A DNA stretch of 42,832 bases from a bacterium (GTDB lineage Bacteria; Oederibacteriota; JAAXVQ01; JAUVAV01). Location of the stretch: positions 1 to 42,832 of the forward strand of contig JAIORK010000022.1 of the NCBI GenBank assembly GCA_021108215.1, in the 5' to 3' direction. The notes under the pieces are model-generated. The model ran no database searches and had not been told where the DNA came from. It saw only the letters and a program-made list of their open reading frames with translations. Both the position numbers and the translations under genes were made by a program. Below, one piece after another: positions 2,519 to 41,442 of the stretch (its first letter is position 1; every line of letters starts with the position of its first letter).

Positions 2519-2951
2519 GAGAAAAACCCTCCTGGAAGGATAATATTGTTGGTGGGAGTGGAAATCAATTAAATCGCCAAGCGAGGAAAAAAACATTCTC
2601 AAATCTTGCATATTTTAAGACGAACTTGCCGGAACGTCCACAAAAAACCGGTCAAGCCCCTATATTTTTATGGCAGCTCGGACAAAACCAATATCCACGG
2701 CGGAAAATGCCGGCAAATAGCTCAAATTCCGGTGACACCATACTTAATTATTTGGACTCCAACACCCAACATCACCGTATTATGGCATCACTTTTTATAG
2801 AATATATTTCCGCCAGGTGTCGCTGCACATCCCATTAATATTATTACATCCACAGCATTTTTCTTGCGAATTGCACTGCCTTATGAACCTATGATCCGGA
2901 GTTCCCCTACTACAGCGCCTTGCGCATATACAGCAGTACACTTTCATAGGC
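2519..2951. other. Intergenic region upstream of the beta-helix gene
   Basis: About 430 bp with no convincing gene; the short plus-strand frames here lack RBS and recognisable features. It must contain the promoter of the beta-helix gene, but I cannot pick a -35/-10 pair with confidence. The stretch around 2715-2745 (GGTGACACCATACTTAATT) resembles sequence I associate with flanks of REP-type transposase genes; this is a weak recollection. The right end is the target site of the IS630-type element. Confidence 0.4.
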
Positions 2952-4030
2952 TAGTGTAGTGTCCCTAACGCTTCTTTACTTTTGGCAATTTTAGCCATGA
3001 TACGTTCAACAGGCGCAGTCCAAACAAATACTTTTGGATTCTGGTTATGATTATTTAAATAATCATAAATTGCCGTGGTCAAGGTTTTCACATTTTCAAA
3101 AGATCCTCGGCGCAAACGTTTTTCGGTTAACTCGCGAAACCAACGTTCGACCAGGTTTAGCCAAGAACATAAAGTGGGAATAAAGTGTAAATGAAATCTC
3201 GGATGACGTTTCAGCCAAGTTTTGACACGGGAATGTTTGTGCGTGCCATAGTTGTCGACAATTAAATGCAGAGCCATCTGTGGAGGAGTCTCAGCGACGA
3301 TTTTTTTTAAGAAGCGAATGAATTCGCTATGCCGATGACGTGGCAGGCAATCTCCGATGACTTTGCCATCAGCCATGTTCAGAGCTGCAAATAAAGTGGT
3401 TGTGCCATTGCGTTTGTAATCGTGAGTCATGGTTTCGCAGCGCCCCTTTTTTATCGGCAAACCCGGTTGGCTGCGATCAAGCGCTTAAATTTGACTTTTT
3501 TCGTCGACACATAATACTAAAGATTTATCAGGTGGATTCAGATATAGTCCTACAACATCTGTCAGCTTTTCTGTGAAGTGCGCATCACGGCTCAATTTGA
3601 AAGTTTTTATCAAATGAGGTTTAAGTTGGTACTGTTGCCAAATGCGTTGGACGGTCATGCGACTGAGTCCTTGGGCTTGAGCCATAGTTCGAATGCTCCA
3701 GTGCGTAGCATTGGACGGAGTAGTATGAAGCGTGGCGTTAATCACAGCTTTTACTTTTGCATTTGAAATTTTGGACAACCGTCCTGGTCGGGGCGCATCT
3801 TTTTCTAAGCCTGTGAGGCGCAGTGATAGGAACCGTTCGCGCCAAAGTTGAACCGTTGGACGGGAAATTTTCATACGACTGGCGATCACTTGATTTTGTT
3901 GACTGTCGGCAGCCATAAGAATAATTTGAGCTCGTTGAACCAAACGCAGAGGATATTTGCGGCCATGAGCCCAAGTTTGCAAAGCAACACGTTCTTCGGG
4001 GGTTAGACGGATAGGTTGACTGATTTTCAT
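2951..4030 (-). pseudogene. IS630 transposase interrupted by an in-frame ochre codon
   Basis: The N-terminal half (from the ATG at 4030, MKISQPIRLTPEER) carries a helix-turn-helix region and the first catalytic Asp in VLCVDEKSQ. A TAA at 3485-3487 follows directly, and the same frame then continues through [14 protein letters not shown] to the second Asp ([11 protein letters not shown]) and the Glu region ([17 protein letters not shown]). In intact relatives the codon after DEKSQI is usually Gln, so a single CAA to TAA change explains the break. The two halves (3485-4030 and 2951-3460) are in one frame, so this is not the programmed frameshift of some IS families. The final TAG is formed by the TA target duplication plus one host base. 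The element is probably not autonomous. Confidence 0.85.
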
Positions 4031-4088
4031 AATAAAACATATTACACCATTTTTGATTATATGCAAACTTATTTATGGGACACTACAC
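2954..4088 (-). mobile_element. IS630-family insertion sequence, 1135 bp
   Basis: The ends are inverted repeats: reading inward, both sides start GTGTAGTGTCCC (12 bp identical). Each is flanked by the dinucleotide TA (2952-2953 and 4089-4090), the target duplication expected of the IS630/Tc1-mariner superfamily. The interior is filled by one transposase reading frame on the minus strand, broken by one stop codon. The element sits about 105 bp beyond the end of the HAD-like fragment at 4196-4434. Confidence 0.9.
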
Positions 4089-15174: not shown

Positions 15175-15240
15175 GTAGAGACGTTGCATGCAACGTCTCT
15201 ACACGAACGCAACGTCTCTACACGAACGCAACGTCTCTAC
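15175..15240. repeat. 28-nt palindrome copy C with two tandem half-copies
   Basis: The full palindrome occupies 15175-15202. Two exact copies of a 19-nt unit (ACGAACGCAACGTCTCTAC) follow at 15203-15221 and 15222-15240, each ending in the right half of the palindrome. An imperfect hairpin with arms GGGCGCGA/TCGCGCCC lies just right (about 15250-15288). Confidence 0.88.
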
Positions 15241-15305
15241 ACGGTCTTCCGGGCGCGATGATCCGGCATCCACCGGACAGGTCGCGCCCCTACGGGTTTT
15301 TCAAC

Positions 15306-33699: not shown

Positions 33700-35586
33700 T
33701 TATCTCATCACAGCCAGCTTGATCGTCTGCTTCTCTTTACTGTTAAAATAAACTTTGGCCAGATAAATCCCCGGCGCGATATCCGCGCAATTCCAGATAA
33801 GTACTTGTCCTCGACCGGCCGGCATGCTTTCCTTGAGCTTGGCAATACGTTCACCAGTCAGATTATATATATTTATTTCTACATCTGTGGCTTTGTCCAG
33901 GTGCATTAAAAATTTCATCTGCTTTTGCGCGGGATTGGGATAGGCCAGCACTGCCTTGCCTTTCAGGTCTATGTTGGCCAAACCTGAGGTTTGGGTCACA
34001 GTTGGTGTTAACGTGATAGTTGCTGTTGGTGTGGCTGTCGGACTAACAGTCAAAGTAGGTGTTATTGTTGCTGTTAGCGTGACTGTCGGACTCATAGTCG
34101 AGGTAGCTGTTAGAGGGGGTTCTGGGCCGGTTCGCATATCGGCGTTTCCTTCCAGGTTGCCTTTGGAAATCCTGAACCACGGACTGTGTAGTTGACCATT
34201 GTTTACTTGGGCTGGATCATACAGCAGCCGAGCTCGCCAATAATAGGCTTGAAGTGCATTGAGTCCACTGACTTGATATTCCATTTCAGCGCCGGGAACA
34301 CCCAAATCCGTATACCCTGCCTGCGTGTGCATTGTTCCCGATACCAGGGACTGCCCTGACTCAGCGATTTGTACCTGCAATCTGGCGCGTATACGACCCT
34401 GGGTCGAACGGCCAAAGAGACGTACACGAAAAGCTGTATTGCTTAACAAATCTGAAGCCATTCCCACAGGCATGATTAATTGCGAACCATCGGCTCTGGC
34501 CTGACGAGGGATAACTGACAGACCAACAGTATCATTACCATAGTACACAAAAGCACGGCCTTCATTACTCTCGCCATTGTCATATCGATTCGACCCCACT
34601 ATCACATCACTATAGCCATCTCCATTCACATCGCCGGCACCTGCAACAGATATGCCAAAATATGCATCCACTTGATCACTCTCGGCTGTCCAATTTGCTG
34701 TAGCAGCTAAACCTGAGCTGCTGCCATGATACACATAAGCACGACCTTCACCTGCCTCTCCATTTTGATAATAACGCGCTCCCACGATCACATCACCATA
34801 GCCATCTCCATTCACATCGCCGCTACTTGCCACAGAATTGCCAAAATATGCACTCGTTTGATCACTCTCGGCTGTCCAATTTGCTGTAGCAGTTAATCCT
34901 GAGCTGCTGCCATAATACGCATAGGCACGGCCTTCATTATTCTCGCCATTGTCATAACCATACGCTCCCACTATCACATCACTATAACCGTCTCCATTCA
35001 CATCACCTGCGCTTGCCACAGAACAACCAAACTCTGCGCTAATTTGATCACTCTCTGCGGTCCAATTTGCTGTAGCAGCTAAACCTGAGCTGCTCCCATG
35101 ATACACATAAGCACGGCCTTCATCTGGCTCACCATTGTCATATCTATACGCCCCCACGATCACATCACTATAACCATCGCCATTCACATCGCCGGCACTG
35201 GCTACAGAATAACCAAACTCTGCATTCGCTTGATTACTCTCGGCTATCCAATTTGCTGTAGCAGCTAACCCTGAGATGCTGCCATGATAAATAAAAGCAC
35301 GGCCTTCATTACTCTCGCCATTGTCATAACAAAACGCTCCCACGATTACATCACTATACCCATCCCCATTCACATCGCCGGCACTGGCCACAGATAGGCC
35401 AAAATATGCATCCACTTGATCACTCTCGGCTGTCCAATTTGCTGTAGCAGCTAAACCTGAGCTGCTGCCATGATACACATAAGCACGACCTTCACCTGCC
35501 TCTCCATTTTGATAATAACGCGCTCCCACGATCACATCACCATACCCAAATAAAAGCACGGCCTTCATTACTCTCGCCATTGTCAT
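33700..35586 (-). pseudogene. C-terminal part of a frameshifted FG-GAP beta-propeller surface protein
   Basis: The frame continues the repeats of the gene at 35537-37819 after a break near 35546-35549: its true homology begins at GYGDVIVGARYYQNGE, and the preceding dozen residues are a shadow of the other frame. It has five further full or nearly full FG-GAP units of 62 residues (GDVNGDGYSDVIVGA...). A beta-sandwich-like region of about 130 residues follows, containing YYWRARLLYDPAQVN, which resembles Ig/fibronectin-like modules. Then come a Thr/Pro-rich linker and a sorting-type C-terminus (AYPNPAQKQMKFLMHL...IAPGIYLAKVYF). The first apparent start lacks an RBS. This tail is very like that of the beta-helix protein at the left edge. 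Confidence 0.8.
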
Positions 35587-37010
35587 AACAAAACGCTCCC
35601 ACGATTACATCACTATAACCATCTCCATTCACATCTCCGGCACTGGCCACAGATAGGCCAAAATATGCACTCGTTTGATCACTCTCGGCTGTCCAGGCGG
35701 CTGTATTTGCCAGCCCTGTGCTGCTGCCATGATACACATAGGCACGGCCTTCATTTGTCTGGCCATTGTCATATCGACGCGCTCCCACGATTACATCGCT
35801 ATACCCATCTCCATTCACATCTCCGGCACTGGCCACAGATCTGCCAAACTCTGCGCTAATTTGATCACTCTCTGCTGTCCAATCCGCTGTATTTGCCAGC
35901 CCTGAGCTGCTGCCTTGATACACATAAGCACGGCCTTCATTTGTCTGGCCATTGTCATAATAGTAAGCTCCCACGATCACATCACTATAACCATCCCCAT
36001 TCACATCGCCCGCACTTGCCACAGATATGCCAAAATATGCGAGAGTTTGATCACTCTCTGCTGTCCAGGCAGCTGTATTTGCCAACCCTAAGCTGCTGCC
36101 TTGATACACAAAAACACGGCCTTCATTCTGCTCTCCATTGTTATAACCATACGCTCCCACGATCACATCACTATAACCATCTCCATTCACATCGCCGGCA
36201 CTAGCCACAGATATGCCAAACTCGGCATATGTTTGATCACTCTCGGCTGTCCAGGCAGCTGTACTTGCCAGCCCAAAGCTGCTGCCTTGATACACAAAAA
36301 CACGGCCTTCATCATCCGCGCCATTGTCATATAAATGCGCTCCCACTATCACATCACTATAACCATCCCCATTTACATCTCCGCTACTTGCCACAGATCT
36401 GCCAAAATAAGCATTCGCTTGATCGCCCTCGGCTGTCCAGGCAGCTGGATTTACCAGCCCTCCACTGCTACCATGATACACATAAGCACGGCCTTCATCT
36501 GTCTCGCCATTGTCATAACCATACGCTCCCACGATCACTTCACTATAACCATCTCCATTCACATCTCCGGCGCTTGCCACTGAACAACCAAAATATGCAT
36601 ATGTTTGATTACCCTCTGCTGTCCAATATGCTATGGCGACCAGCCCTGAGCTGCTGCCATGATACACATACGCACGGCCTTCATCTGTATGATCATCATC
36701 ATAAAAGGGCGCTCCCACGATCACATCACTATACCCATCTCCATTTACATCTCCGGCGCTTGCCACTGAATAACCAAAAGATGCATTCGCTTGATCACTC
36801 TCTGCGGTCCAGGCATCTGTAGCGGCTAATCCTGAGCTGCTGCCATGATACACATAAGCACGGCCTTCATCTGTATGACCATTGTCATATTCATACGCTC
36901 CCACGATCACATCACCATAACCATCCCCATTTACATCTCCGGCGCTTGCTACTGAATAACCAAAAGATGCATTCGCTTGATCACTCTCTGCTGTCCATCC
37001 GGGATTGGTC
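34561..37010 (-). repeat. 186-bp tandem repeat array encoding FG-GAP units
   Basis: About 13 units of 186 bp in total. Some are nearly identical: the stretch 35386-35530 matches 34650-34800 almost base for base, and 35549-35640 matches 35292-35390 closely. The frameshift lies between these two near-copies. Confidence 0.85.
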
Positions 37011-37819
37011 ATCAAGGGATCAATGACTATCGGATATTTTGCATTGGCATCCTGGTACGCTACAATGATCGTGTTTTCTTCCACTCTTATTTCCGAGGGC
37101 AATAACTTGTCTGTTGCATCTTTGACTTTTAATTGCCCATATCTCATGATAACTGCCTGATGCTCATCTACAAAATCAATGCTGCTGTGATCTGCTGCCA
37201 TTCGCAAGCACAAGCCCTCTATCCTGCAGGACTGAATCATTACCCAAGGATCGCTGCCGGAAGACTTTTTGGGACCTGCAACCGGCTTTTTATAAATGAC
37301 AAATCCTTGCTCTATGCCTTCGGGTTTGTTCTCATACCACTCTTTCATCTGCTTGCGATCATAGGTAACCATATTCCCTTGTACGCTTCTTTCGCCCTTA
37401 TCGACTGATTCCATGTTCCCCAGCCGGCCCATTTGATCAGTCTCCCATTGCCACTGCCATTTTTTGGTTTTGGATTTCTCTTCTTTTTCAGAGGATATTG
37501 TTCGCGGCTCAAATCCCACCTTGTTCTCATGCACAGTCATCCGGAAATTATGCTTTCGATTCGGCGCCTGGAGCAGGCCTTGTTTATTTTTGCTGAGCTC
37601 ATATTCCTGCGCTTTGATCTTTTCCATGGCTTGACTGAGCCACGCTTTATCTGCTCCGCCAGCCACGGCTTTTGGATCAATCGCAGGCTCGCTTAACTGC
37701 TTGGAATCTTGTGGCCTGTGATCGCTTTTTTGCACCACCATATAGGCGCCCAAACTGATCAGACCAACCACACTCACCATGATGATGATGGTTATAATTC
37801 GTTTAATGTTTACAGACAT
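35537..37819 (-). CDS. N-terminal part of FG-GAP repeat surface protein (frameshifted at its 3' end)
   Basis: 760 residues, with GGAGG before the ATG at 37819. An N-terminal hydrophobic segment (IITIIIMVSVVGLISLGAYMVV) serves as signal or anchor. About 230 residues form a globular region ending in KYPIVIDPLM, a phrase I associate with this protein class. Then come FG-GAP units of 62 residues, each with the calcium-binding loop DVNGDGYSD and the phrases VIVGA, EGRAYVYHGSS and WTAESDQ: seven complete units and an eighth cut at GRAFI, after which a wrong frame adds WVW and stops. FG-GAP units form seven-bladed integrin-like propellers. Together with 33700-35586 it would make one protein of about 1370-1410 residues. 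Confidence 0.82.
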   Translation of the reverse strand: MSVNIKRIITIIIMVSVVGLISLGAYMVVQKSDHRPQDSKQLSEPAIDPKAVAGGADKAWLSQAMEKIKAQEYELSKNKQGLLQAPNRKHNFRMTVHENKVGFEPRTISSEKEEKSKTKKWQWQWETDQMGRLGNMESVDKGERSVQGNMVTYDRKQMKEWYENKPEGIEQGFVIYKKPVAGPKKSSGSDPWVMIQSCRIEGLCLRMAADHSSIDFVDEHQAVIMRYGQLKVKDATDKLLPSEIRVEENTIIVAYQDANAKYPIVIDPLMTNPGWTAESDQANASFGYSVASAGDVNGDGYGDVIVGAYEYDNGHTDEGRAYVYHGSSSGLAATDAWTAESDQANASFGYSVASAGDVNGDGYSDVIVGAPFYDDDHTDEGRAYVYHGSSSGLVAIAYWTAEGNQTYAYFGCSVASAGDVNGDGYSEVIVGAYGYDNGETDEGRAYVYHGSSGGLVNPAAWTAEGDQANAYFGRSVASSGDVNGDGYSDVIVGAHLYDNGADDEGRVFVYQGSSFGLASTAAWTAESDQTYAEFGISVASAGDVNGDGYSDVIVGAYGYNNGEQNEGRVFVYQGSSLGLANTAAWTAESDQTLAYFGISVASAGDVNGDGYSDVIVGAYYYDNGQTNEGRAYVYQGSSSGLANTADWTAESDQISAEFGRSVASAGDVNGDGYSDVIVGARRYDNGQTNEGRAYVYHGSSTGLANTAAWTAESDQTSAYFGLSVASAGDVNGDGYSDVIVGAFCYDNGESNEGRAFIWVW

Positions 37820-37991
37820 TTGCTTTTCCTCCGGGATTTAAATTAATCATGGCAAGCAATGCCATCTTTGCCTTTCATTCCGTCTTTGGCAACGCCACCG
37901 GATCCGACCGACGGAACAATAAATAAGGTCGCTCGTATTTAGGATCAATATTTCAAGACCTGGGATGCCCCTGGTTTGACAGACACTTTAA
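37820..37991. other. Leader region of the FG-GAP gene
   Basis: About 170 bp without a gene. It must hold the promoter; TTGATC with a 17-nt spacer before TTATTTA on the minus strand is only a weak candidate. Confidence 0.25.
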
Positions 37992-39148: not shown

Positions 39149-40084
39149 TTATCTTTTCTTGTTCTCCGGTCCATGAATATTGAGCGAAAGATAATGCTTC
39201 ATTCCCAATTCTCCCATCAGTCCAAGAGCGTAATCCAGTTGAAACGCGCCCAAACGCGCACCTAAACCAAAAGAAAAAGATTCTAAATCATACCCATATT
39301 TATATCCGATTCGCCCCTTCATTATTTCTCCCCAAGCAATTTCAATACCGGAATGCATCTGCAAAATATTAATATTCACAATATCCAAGGACGTCAGCAA
39401 ACAATAATCACCATTCCATTTAACTTGGTATGTCCCTCCGATTCCAACAGATAACGGCAATGAATCACCTACCTCTGAGTATTTCAATTGCGTCCCGATA
39501 TTTTGAACCACAACTCCCAAGGTGAATTTTTCATTCGGAGACACAAATAAACCACCAACATCTATAGCGAAAGCTCGTGCATGATATTCCTCGATCAAGG
39601 TCGAGTAAACCATTTTCGTTACAACGCCTAAAAACAGTTCCTTTAAATCCAAACCATATCCCAATGAAAACACAAAATCCTGTTCCGCGTTTGATATGCG
39701 AGAGCTTCCGTCATCGGCAATGAGTTCAATTTCCCCACCCTGAAAAGTTGCCAAACTTGCGCCCAGCGTTCCCTGAAAAAGCGGACTAACATAACCGAGA
39801 TAACCGTAATAAGTATCCATCAGGCTCCGGTTGTACATGAGACCTGTTTCCTGATGCACCAAACGTCCCAGCCCAGCCGGATTGTAATAAAGTGTCTGCA
39901 TATCATCCGCCACAGCTACATAAGCTTCACCCATACCCAATGCCCTCGCACTCATCCCCTGGGTTAATACTCGTGCGCCGCTTTCTCCCTGGTCGCTTCC
40001 CCAAACATTCAAAATCCCAAAAAATACACAAACGAGTGAAAAATATGTTAACAGAATATATTTTCGTGAAAATTTGCATCTCAT
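39149..40084 (-). CDS. PorV/PorQ-family outer-membrane beta-barrel protein
   Basis: 311 residues from the ATG at 40084, preceded by AAGGGA; the frame's earlier start lacks an RBS. A signal peptide (ILLTYFSLVCVFFGILNVWGS) is followed by the family hallmark GARVLTQGMSARALGMGEAYVAVADD and YYNPAGLGRL, then alternating beta strands (DTYYGYLGYVSPL, FVFSLGYGLDLKELF) to a C-terminal strand. PorV/PorQ-type proteins belong to or resemble parts of the type IX secretion system and the FadL-like UPF0164 group. It sits directly after a secreted protein with a sorting-type tail, which fits an export or anchoring role. Confidence 0.82.
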   Translation of the reverse strand: MRCKFSRKYILLTYFSLVCVFFGILNVWGSDQGESGARVLTQGMSARALGMGEAYVAVADDMQTLYYNPAGLGRLVHQETGLMYNRSLMDTYYGYLGYVSPLFQGTLGASLATFQGGEIELIADDGSSRISNAEQDFVFSLGYGLDLKELFLGVVTKMVYSTLIEEYHARAFAIDVGGLFVSPNEKFTLGVVVQNIGTQLKYSEVGDSLPLSVGIGGTYQVKWNGDYCLLTSLDIVNINILQMHSGIEIAWGEIMKGRIGYKYGYDLESFSFGLGARLGAFQLDYALGLMGELGMKHYLSLNIHGPENKKR

Positions 40085-40116
40085 GACTTTCCCTTTCAGC
40101 AAAGTGTAGCAATCCC

Positions 40117-41442
40117 TCATTTGATAATACATATTTTTTTAGTTTGCCGCCATCCCGGAGCTTCAAGATGCAGCAGGTATATGCCACTGGCCACAAACGT
40201 TCCTCGCGTATTTCTGCCATCCCAGGTTTCAACATGCGCACCGCCCGCCTGTCTGGAACCATCAACGACTGTTCTGACCAACACACCATCCACAGTATAT
40301 ATTTTGATACTGATCTTCCCGGGAGAAGCAATATTATATAAAATAGTCACTTCTTCCCCTTTTATGGGATGACATTCATTATGTACAAGCCGCAAGGAAT
40401 TATTTCCAATCGCAGTTTGAGCATTCGCCGCATTTTTCGTAGGTCCGTTAAGCGGATAAGCGATTCCCGAAAGAATGGAATTGTAATACCCGGTACGGTC
40501 AGTGATGTACCAAACAGCACTTAAAACATCCAAACTGGAATAGTCATGTTGATTGGCATATTGAATACCCTTTCGTACCCAATATGCCCAATGATTAGAT
40601 GTCTCACTAGTCCAGGGCTGCCCGAAAGTCTGGCCGTCACTCGGAATACCTTTATGCGCATCCGTGCAATAGGCACTGATATAATGCGCGCAGCCATTTA
40701 AAGCGGTGGTGCTATCACCCACCACCAAATCCTGATCACTATCATCTGTTGAATCGACAATATAGCCTTCGTAATTGGTACCGGATTGATACACAACAGA
40801 GATGAGTGATTTTTCCCCAACATAATTACTGGTTCCATAAAAGACTTGTTCCCGACCAATTTCTGAGTATGTGGGAAAATGGTAAAATGTTATATGACCA
40901 CTTCCAAACTTATTCCTTAGCCAGCTCAGATACCCATCAATTGTAAGGTCATTATGATCTCCAGAATGAGCTGCCAACAAGACATTTCCACCATTTCCGG
41001 TTGCAACAATTGCAGCGTGACTATATATATCGTCATCACGGCCAAAAATCACGACATCCCCCGGCGATAAATTGAAGGGTGCTTGACCCGCATTTTCCCC
41101 AAAAGTAACTTCAGCATGTTGGAAATTCTTTAAATGCGCATGAAGAGAATCACACCAGGTTATCGTTCCACCTATACCAATATGACCCGAAGGTATATTT
41201 CCGTCTTGAACCAAATCCATCCCACCATCAATTAAGCATTGTGATACAAAATTCGCACAGTCACCGCCTACATTTGAATAGTCCGCGTAATCTCTTGTAT
41301 TTCTTCCATCCCACCATTTATTTGCATAATACACAGCTTCCTCGAAATTATATGCATTTGCGAGTGGTGTCAAAAATAATATCAGCAATAGAATTGATAG
41401 TGATTTTCGAAAATACTTTTTCTTGATCCAAAAAAATATCAT
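40117..41442 (-). CDS. Secreted amidase-like protein with C-terminal sorting-type domain
   Basis: 441 residues. A signal peptide ends PLANA. The Amidase_6-like domain starts YNFEEAVYYANKWWDGRNTR and has the catalytic Cys62 in GGDCANFVSQCL and His142 in IYSHAAIV within a papain-like (CHAP/NlpC-related) fold. A middle region of about 180 residues includes a second GCAHYISAYC segment. The C-terminal about 85 residues have the FlgD-Ig pattern GKISIKIYTVDGVLVRT then ASGIYLLHLEAPG. It probably cleaves peptide or amide bonds at the cell surface or outside. It starts 1 nt after the HEAT gene stop. Confidence 0.82.
   Translation of the reverse strand: MIFFWIKKKYFRKSLSILLLILFLTPLANAYNFEEAVYYANKWWDGRNTRDYADYSNVGGDCANFVSQCLIDGGMDLVQDGNIPSGHIGIGGTITWCDSLHAHLKNFQHAEVTFGENAGQAPFNLSPGDVVIFGRDDDIYSHAAIVATGNGGNVLLAAHSGDHNDLTIDGYLSWLRNKFGSGHITFYHFPTYSEIGREQVFYGTSNYVGEKSLISVVYQSGTNYEGYIVDSTDDSDQDLVVGDSTTALNGCAHYISAYCTDAHKGIPSDGQTFGQPWTSETSNHWAYWVRKGIQYANQHDYSSLDVLSAVWYITDRTGYYNSILSGIAYPLNGPTKNAANAQTAIGNNSLRLVHNECHPIKGEEVTILYNIASPGKISIKIYTVDGVLVRTVVDGSRQAGGAHVETWDGRNTRGTFVASGIYLLHLEAPGWRQTKKICIIK

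Follow-up and report, generated by a model that had tools for sequence, protein, structure and literature searches.

A frame break in the repeat array of a bacterial FG-GAP propeller gene: a probable misjoin in the draft assembly rather than gene death

Bacterial integrin-type FG-GAP propellers have been described with 7 or 14 repeats and one Ca2+ site per repeat, and the 14-repeat sequences were taken as two tandem domains (Chouhan 2011, PMC3192720). In the WRAP propeller Npun_R6612 (PDB 2YMU), 14 near-identical blades form two seven-bladed propellers (Afanasieva 2019, PMC6805158). Disrupted repetitive propellers are arrays of similar blades, with an internal identity above 60%, that are broken by an out-of-frame deletion or stop and carry more blades downstream in another frame; their authors noted that sequencing errors could not be dismissed as a cause (Pereira and Lupas 2022, PMC9218822). 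Here we analysed a stretch of 42,832 nucleotides (nt) from a bacterium of the Oederibacteriota (contig JAIORK010000022.1 of draft assembly GCA_021108215.1; hereafter, the window), in which positions 37819-33700 hold exactly two overlapping minus-strand open reading frames, ORF1 and ORF2 (Table 1). They share 50 nt and together make up one FG-GAP array gene, interrupted by a frame break between near-identical repeats. We lean towards a misjoin in the draft assembly, rather than a real recent lesion, as the origin of the break.

Read in frame, the array has complete units 1-7 and unit 8 up to the residues GRAFI, after which ORF2 restarts in mid-unit at GYGDV and continues with units 10-14. We listed 12 register copies in the array; 10 of the 11 spacings between them are 186 nt, and the remaining one (1/11) is 259 nt. 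At the break 113 nt are missing modulo 186, equal to 37 codons plus 2 nt, in agreement with an earlier sequence-only reading that had placed the break at the same residues and put the loss at about 37 residues and not a multiple of three. That reading had also described the flanking units as nearly identical to others in the array, as the exact repeats of 70 and 147 nt on the two sides of the junction confirm, and had restored the array to 7+1+1+5 = 14 units. This sum holds for the smallest loss and equals the usual count in the family, but it is not forced by the window sequence alone, because losses of 299 or 485 nt (giving 15 or 16 units) yield a frame identical to that of 113 nt. The junction lies at 35548|35547, and the 26-mer across it has no second match in the genome when as many as 3 mismatches are tolerated. 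No further stop or frameshift was seen in the gene.

The two repeats at the junction are the only exact repeats of at least 45 nt inside the gene. The median length of the longest exact repeat covering a base of the array is 29 nt, and the longest exact repeat in the 7 other array sequences compared is 71 nt. Between the copied stretches and their partner copies, compared over the part of unit 8 that starts at nt 39 and reaches the junction, and over 150 nt past it, all four differences (4/4) are synonymous and fall in third positions of glycine codons; the probability of this is 0.0035 if the changes are neutral and independent, and 0.06 if they amount to two events. The ratio of nonsynonymous to synonymous substitution rates (dN/dS), measured against a paralogue in the same draft, is 0.35 in units 1-7 and 0.33 in units 11-14, with 0.145 in the N-terminal domain and 0.20 in the tail. 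Given that none of the four differences changes an amino acid and that the two sides are under similar constraint, the break is probably younger than the local copying (units 8/10 and 9/13), or else absent from the cell.

The draft genome comprises 67 contigs, and a search with the N-terminal domain found two other members of the family in it, both of which meet contig ends; for any single gene of 3.9 kb the chance of doing so is about 0.15. The C21 paralogue, 93% identical over a query of 393 amino acids (aa), leaves its contig within its array; a C-terminal half that matches it starts at the end of contig C19. We infer that the two pieces are one gene. When the ends of 7 contigs were compared with stretches of the own genome only, shared words of 47 nt were found for C19 and of 39 nt for C21, and none for the other five; the opening 42 nt of C19, used as a pattern, occur in C19 and C21 only, and we draw nothing from these matches. 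The contig of the other paralogue, C37, stops at the N-terminal domain, about 85 residues short of the start of the window gene. Units of the window gene and of C21/C19 are 68-91% identical in DNA. At the 5' end (window 37301-37821), however, the window and C21 (locus L010) have 519 exact nt in common from the ATG, and 2 nt before it, followed by 30 differences in the next 303 nt. Gene conversion may have produced the tract, or a single consensus may have served for both genes.

Among relatives, the number of units is mostly 14. A scan of genome contigs with one protein as the query found no relative, and a scan with an alignment of the N-terminal domain (A1) gave 10 loci; within the phylum, the domain is present in 4 of the 45 genomes searched. 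We counted units where an array could be followed to its end, carried the N-terminal domain of this family and had units of about 62 aa. Fourteen units were found in 6 of the 7 arrays countable in this way: L041, L042 and L043, which share one metagenome-assembled genome (MAG), FCPU426 MAG CSMAG_228; L046, from a Pseudomonadota MAG; L049, from a Gammaproteobacteria MAG; and the C37 paralogue. The sole exception, L044, has 11. Relatives of this kind suggest that the window itself comes from candidate phylum FCPU426. L046 shows 13 canonical loops and a last unit that rests on its first residues and its length, its loop being off pattern, as is one loop of L042. The 62-aa spacing is kept throughout, save for shifts of up to 5 residues in C37, L046 and L049; in L049 a 67-aa spacing falls exactly between loops 7 and 8. 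Left out of the count were L045 and L050 (matched near a contig end and without a visible array), L048 (4 loops before the contig runs out), G005 (match stops at the contig end), the split C21/C19 gene (8 and 4 loops) and L047, whose 6 loops at 66-75 aa belong to a different spacing class. None of the 7 countable homologues is broken at the position of the window gene. Fourteen units are thus well supported as the usual form of the family, probably as two heptads. Blade number stays mostly at 14 in diverged homologues despite the copying of units within arrays, which makes the family a test case for the control of repeat number by a closed fold.

In the explanation that we favour, the true gene would continue in one frame, and two sequence tips ending in near-identical repeats would have been joined without true overlap, by software and not in the cell. 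The position of the junction between the two longest exact repeats of the gene is consistent with this, as are the contig ends in both other family members, the 14 units of most homologues, and the constraint and synonymous differences on both sides of the break. The join itself is out of register and has 1 nt of microhomology; had repeats recombined with each other, the loss would be a multiple of 186 nt.

Several observations nonetheless weigh against a misjoin. A graph assembler links only words present in the reads; an overlap-free join therefore requires a chimeric read or some step of scaffolding or gap closing, and no ambiguous base N, the mark of a closed gap, occurs in the window or in the loci examined. 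The contig also crosses the 519-nt repeat shared with C21 and the 147-nt repeat, so the assembly could pass longer repeats than those at the fault. As to constraint, unit 8 alone (49 codons) has a higher dN/dS against C21, 0.57, and the matching of units between paralogues is loose. Units 8 and 10 also hold 4 nonsynonymous differences in their first 39 nt, which were left out of the count of four because in that part unit 10 is included in the 147-nt copy shared with unit 14. The genome carries further lesions that near-identical repeats would not account for. The C37 paralogue (C37:121500-126777, L009) has an in-frame TAA in unit 14, beyond which its tail and sorting domain are still open, and a second in-frame stop at the N-terminal domain, four codons from the contig end. 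Among 11 stretches around sorting domains with short frames, inspected by eye, one on contig C29 (L057) holds a sorting-domain cargo gene that appears frame-broken between overlapping frames, with no near-identical repeats there. Finally, disrupted repetitive propellers are a documented class (PMC9218822).

The TAA of C37, the apparent break in L057 and the published class speak at the same time for a real and recent death of the gene, by an illegitimate deletion of 113, 299 or 485 nt in the array of a working 14-, 15- or 16-blade gene; so does an orphan sorting domain in a 96-aa frame on contig C32 (L051, from the same 11 stretches), possibly the remnant of a lost cargo gene. We regard gene death as a serious contender, although somewhat less probable than the misjoin. 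The gene shows no further decay and a similar dN/dS on both sides, so a real event would be very recent; the breakpoint is nearly without homology although long homologies abound; and the other two family members of the draft also run into contig ends. Were the lesion real, the ORF1 product would lack the sorting domain, and ORF2 would be unmade or made only from an internal start. Far less probable is a switch, in which the array would vary on and off, or in sequence, by recombination among the three paralogues (window, C21/C19 and C37), an off allele being restorable by conversion. Both the exact 519-nt 5' tract in an otherwise diverged context and the recent copying of units 8/10 and 9/13 within the array fit this idea, so copying between repeats seems to occur. 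However, a deletion of such a kind is irreversible by slippage, the units of the window gene and of C21/C19 are just 68-91% identical, the only short tandem repeats reported at the break are the periods of the array itself, and none of 11 inverted-repeat pairs reaches the junction with an arm (no search was aimed at recombinases). These last findings also disfavour phase variation, one of the causes that the sequence-only reading had offered. Its gene death stands beside the misjoin, whereas two other suggestions are not favoured: simple assembly collapse was rejected because merging identical repeats would keep the 186-nt period, which the observed loss does not, and slippage is disfavoured because the microhomology at the join is just 1 nt. 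That both frames are expressed on purpose, by programmed frameshifting or as two separate proteins, is hardly credible: the frames do overlap, and the first ATG of ORF2 follows a GGGAG, but this motif is supplied by the unit sequence itself, the joined protein would have a blade with 24 extra residues, and, as noted, the countable homologues are unbroken here, the stop of C37 sitting in another unit.

Other routes to the local sequence were also considered. A recent tandem duplication of 73 nt is not favoured: Tandem Repeats Finder reports 79% matches at the 73-nt period, and to the right of the junction the similarity to units 13-14 extends far past 73 nt. A tandem duplication of 744 nt (4 units) minus 485 nt may account for both flanking repeats by one offset, and it predicts 16 units, as against 14 in most relatives. 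The four synonymous differences also tell against a common origin of the copies and the break in one event; this argument is weak if the three clustered differences arose together, and it holds only when the opening 39 nt of units 8 and 10 are set aside. More broadly, one can picture that FCPU426 bacteria maintain a small family of FG-GAP surface proteins with two heptads and a sorting domain, in which copying between units and between paralogues keeps rewriting the arrays, with selection holding the number at 14 and broken members arising as by-products or off states; we consider this picture unlikely.

By its sequence matches, the gene encodes an FG-GAP protein of the integrin type that carries calcium-loop motifs and, at its C-terminus, a type IX sorting domain. 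Both frames match FG-GAP (PF01839), ORF1 with 253.3 bits and ORF2 with 145.7 bits (cut-off 22.1), and contain 8 and 5 predicted DxNxDG calcium-loop motifs, respectively, one per repeat at a spacing of 62 aa. Median blade identity is 75.8% (66 pairs among the 12 complete in-frame units), above the 60% used to define highly repetitive propellers. A phmmer search matched integrin alpha-5 at 8.5e-25. We modelled units 1-8 (alignment A3, 7 sequences); the best model had a predicted local distance difference test score (pLDDT) of 78.9, and the other four ranged from 65.4 to 30.8. All 50 rows listed by Foldseek for this model were integrins (alpha chains; best E 6.5e-20), with template modelling scores, by query length, of only 0.55-0.61. 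In VIA-align, integrins scored Z 28-29, and WD40 proteins appeared at equal Z and higher (range 28-30); the top rows include eight-bladed WD40 proteins. The model may fit either a seven- or an eight-blade closure. The proposed modelling of two closed seven-bladed propellers, run on an intact 14-unit homologue (A2, 3 sequences), gave no usable model (mean pLDDT 44.7). From the counts in relatives, the usual form, 14 blades between the N-terminal and sorting domains, is probably two seven-bladed propellers.

The start of the N-terminal domain is hydrophobic as judged by eye, with the conserved domain following, and a Shine-Dalgarno-like GGAGG stands immediately 5' of the ORF1 ATG. The genome holds 78 sorting-domain matches and a PorV/PorQ-family gene near the array gene; a model of SprA gave five collinear matches, every one below cut-off, in a single frame of 2138 aa, a divergent SprA-like frame. 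The protein is probably displayed on the cell surface, as an adhesin-like or recognition protein.

Table 1. Parts of the FG-GAP array gene and a neighbouring gene in the window
Feature	Coordinates	Strand	Description
ORF1	35537..37819	-	760 aa; N-terminal domain, FG-GAP units 1-7 and most of unit 8; stop shortly past junction; PF01839, 8 stretches
N-terminal domain	36998..37819	-	conserved domain ending YPIVIDPLMTNPG; alignment A1, 7 sequences
FG-GAP units 1-7	35696..36997	-	in frame, each 186 nt
Unit 8, partial	35548..35695	-	first 148 nt, runs to junction
Junction	35547..35548	-	TTTATTT joined to GGGTATGG; microhomology 1 nt; 113 nt (mod 186) lost
Unit 9, partial	35437..35547	-	last 111 nt, other frame
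FG-GAP units 10-14	34507..35436	-	second frame
ORF2	33700..35586	-	628 aa from first ATG; unit 9 remnant, units 10-14, post-array domain, linker, sorting domain
70-nt exact repeat	35548..35617	-	ends at junction; second copy in unit 10, 35289-35358
147-nt exact repeat	35398..35544	-	starts 3 nt past junction; second copy in units 13-14, 34654-34800
Type IX secretion C-terminal sorting domain	33727..33942	-	PF18962, 32.3 bits (cut-off 27); TIGR04183, 31.0 bits (cut-off 23)
PorV/PorQ-family protein (context)	39149..40132	-	upstream of array gene, same strand; NF033709, 150.8 bits (cut-off 90)

Elsewhere in the window, an amidase-like gene with a FlgD-like C-terminus is followed by the PorV/PorQ-like gene (39149-41442), and a pair of like layout, judged by eye from the translation, lies on contig C48 (L061). 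At 2951-4066 a transposase-like gene is split over two frames (169 and 193 aa); it is presumably of the IS630 type, whose genes are commonly divided between two frames. Downstream of a pyruvate:ferredoxin oxidoreductase gene, at 15190-15243, lies a perfect tandem repeat of 19 nt in 2.8 copies.

The window gene belongs to kinds already in print: FG-GAP proteins with 14 repeats (PMC3192720), 14-blade proteins with two propellers (PMC6805158) and disrupted propellers (PMC9218822). The frame break itself is of modest weight; what follows from it is that frame breaks in repetitive propellers of draft genomes are due a check against the reads before they are counted as gene death. Among related genes, the three arrays of FCPU426 MAG CSMAG_228 resemble the window gene in the N-terminal domain, the 62-aa units, a similar region after the array and 14 units each, but each is one intact frame, of 1411 (L041), 1426 (L042) and 1423 (L043) codons from stop to stop. 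With the bacterial integrin-type propellers the window gene shares a calcium site, here predicted, in each repeat; the available part of that survey mentions no break in its proteins, and the N-terminal and sorting domains fall outside the comparison. Npun_R6612 is alike in its 14 blades and two propellers, and differs in being a single solved protein of the WD40 family with practically identical blades, as against about 76% identity here. The disrupted repetitive propellers share the array of similar blades, the out-of-frame break and the further blades in another frame; their two worked examples, in the part available, are WD40-like and Kelch-like, whereas the array described here is of FG-GAP type, has about 14 units and a sorting domain, and may owe its break to the assembly.

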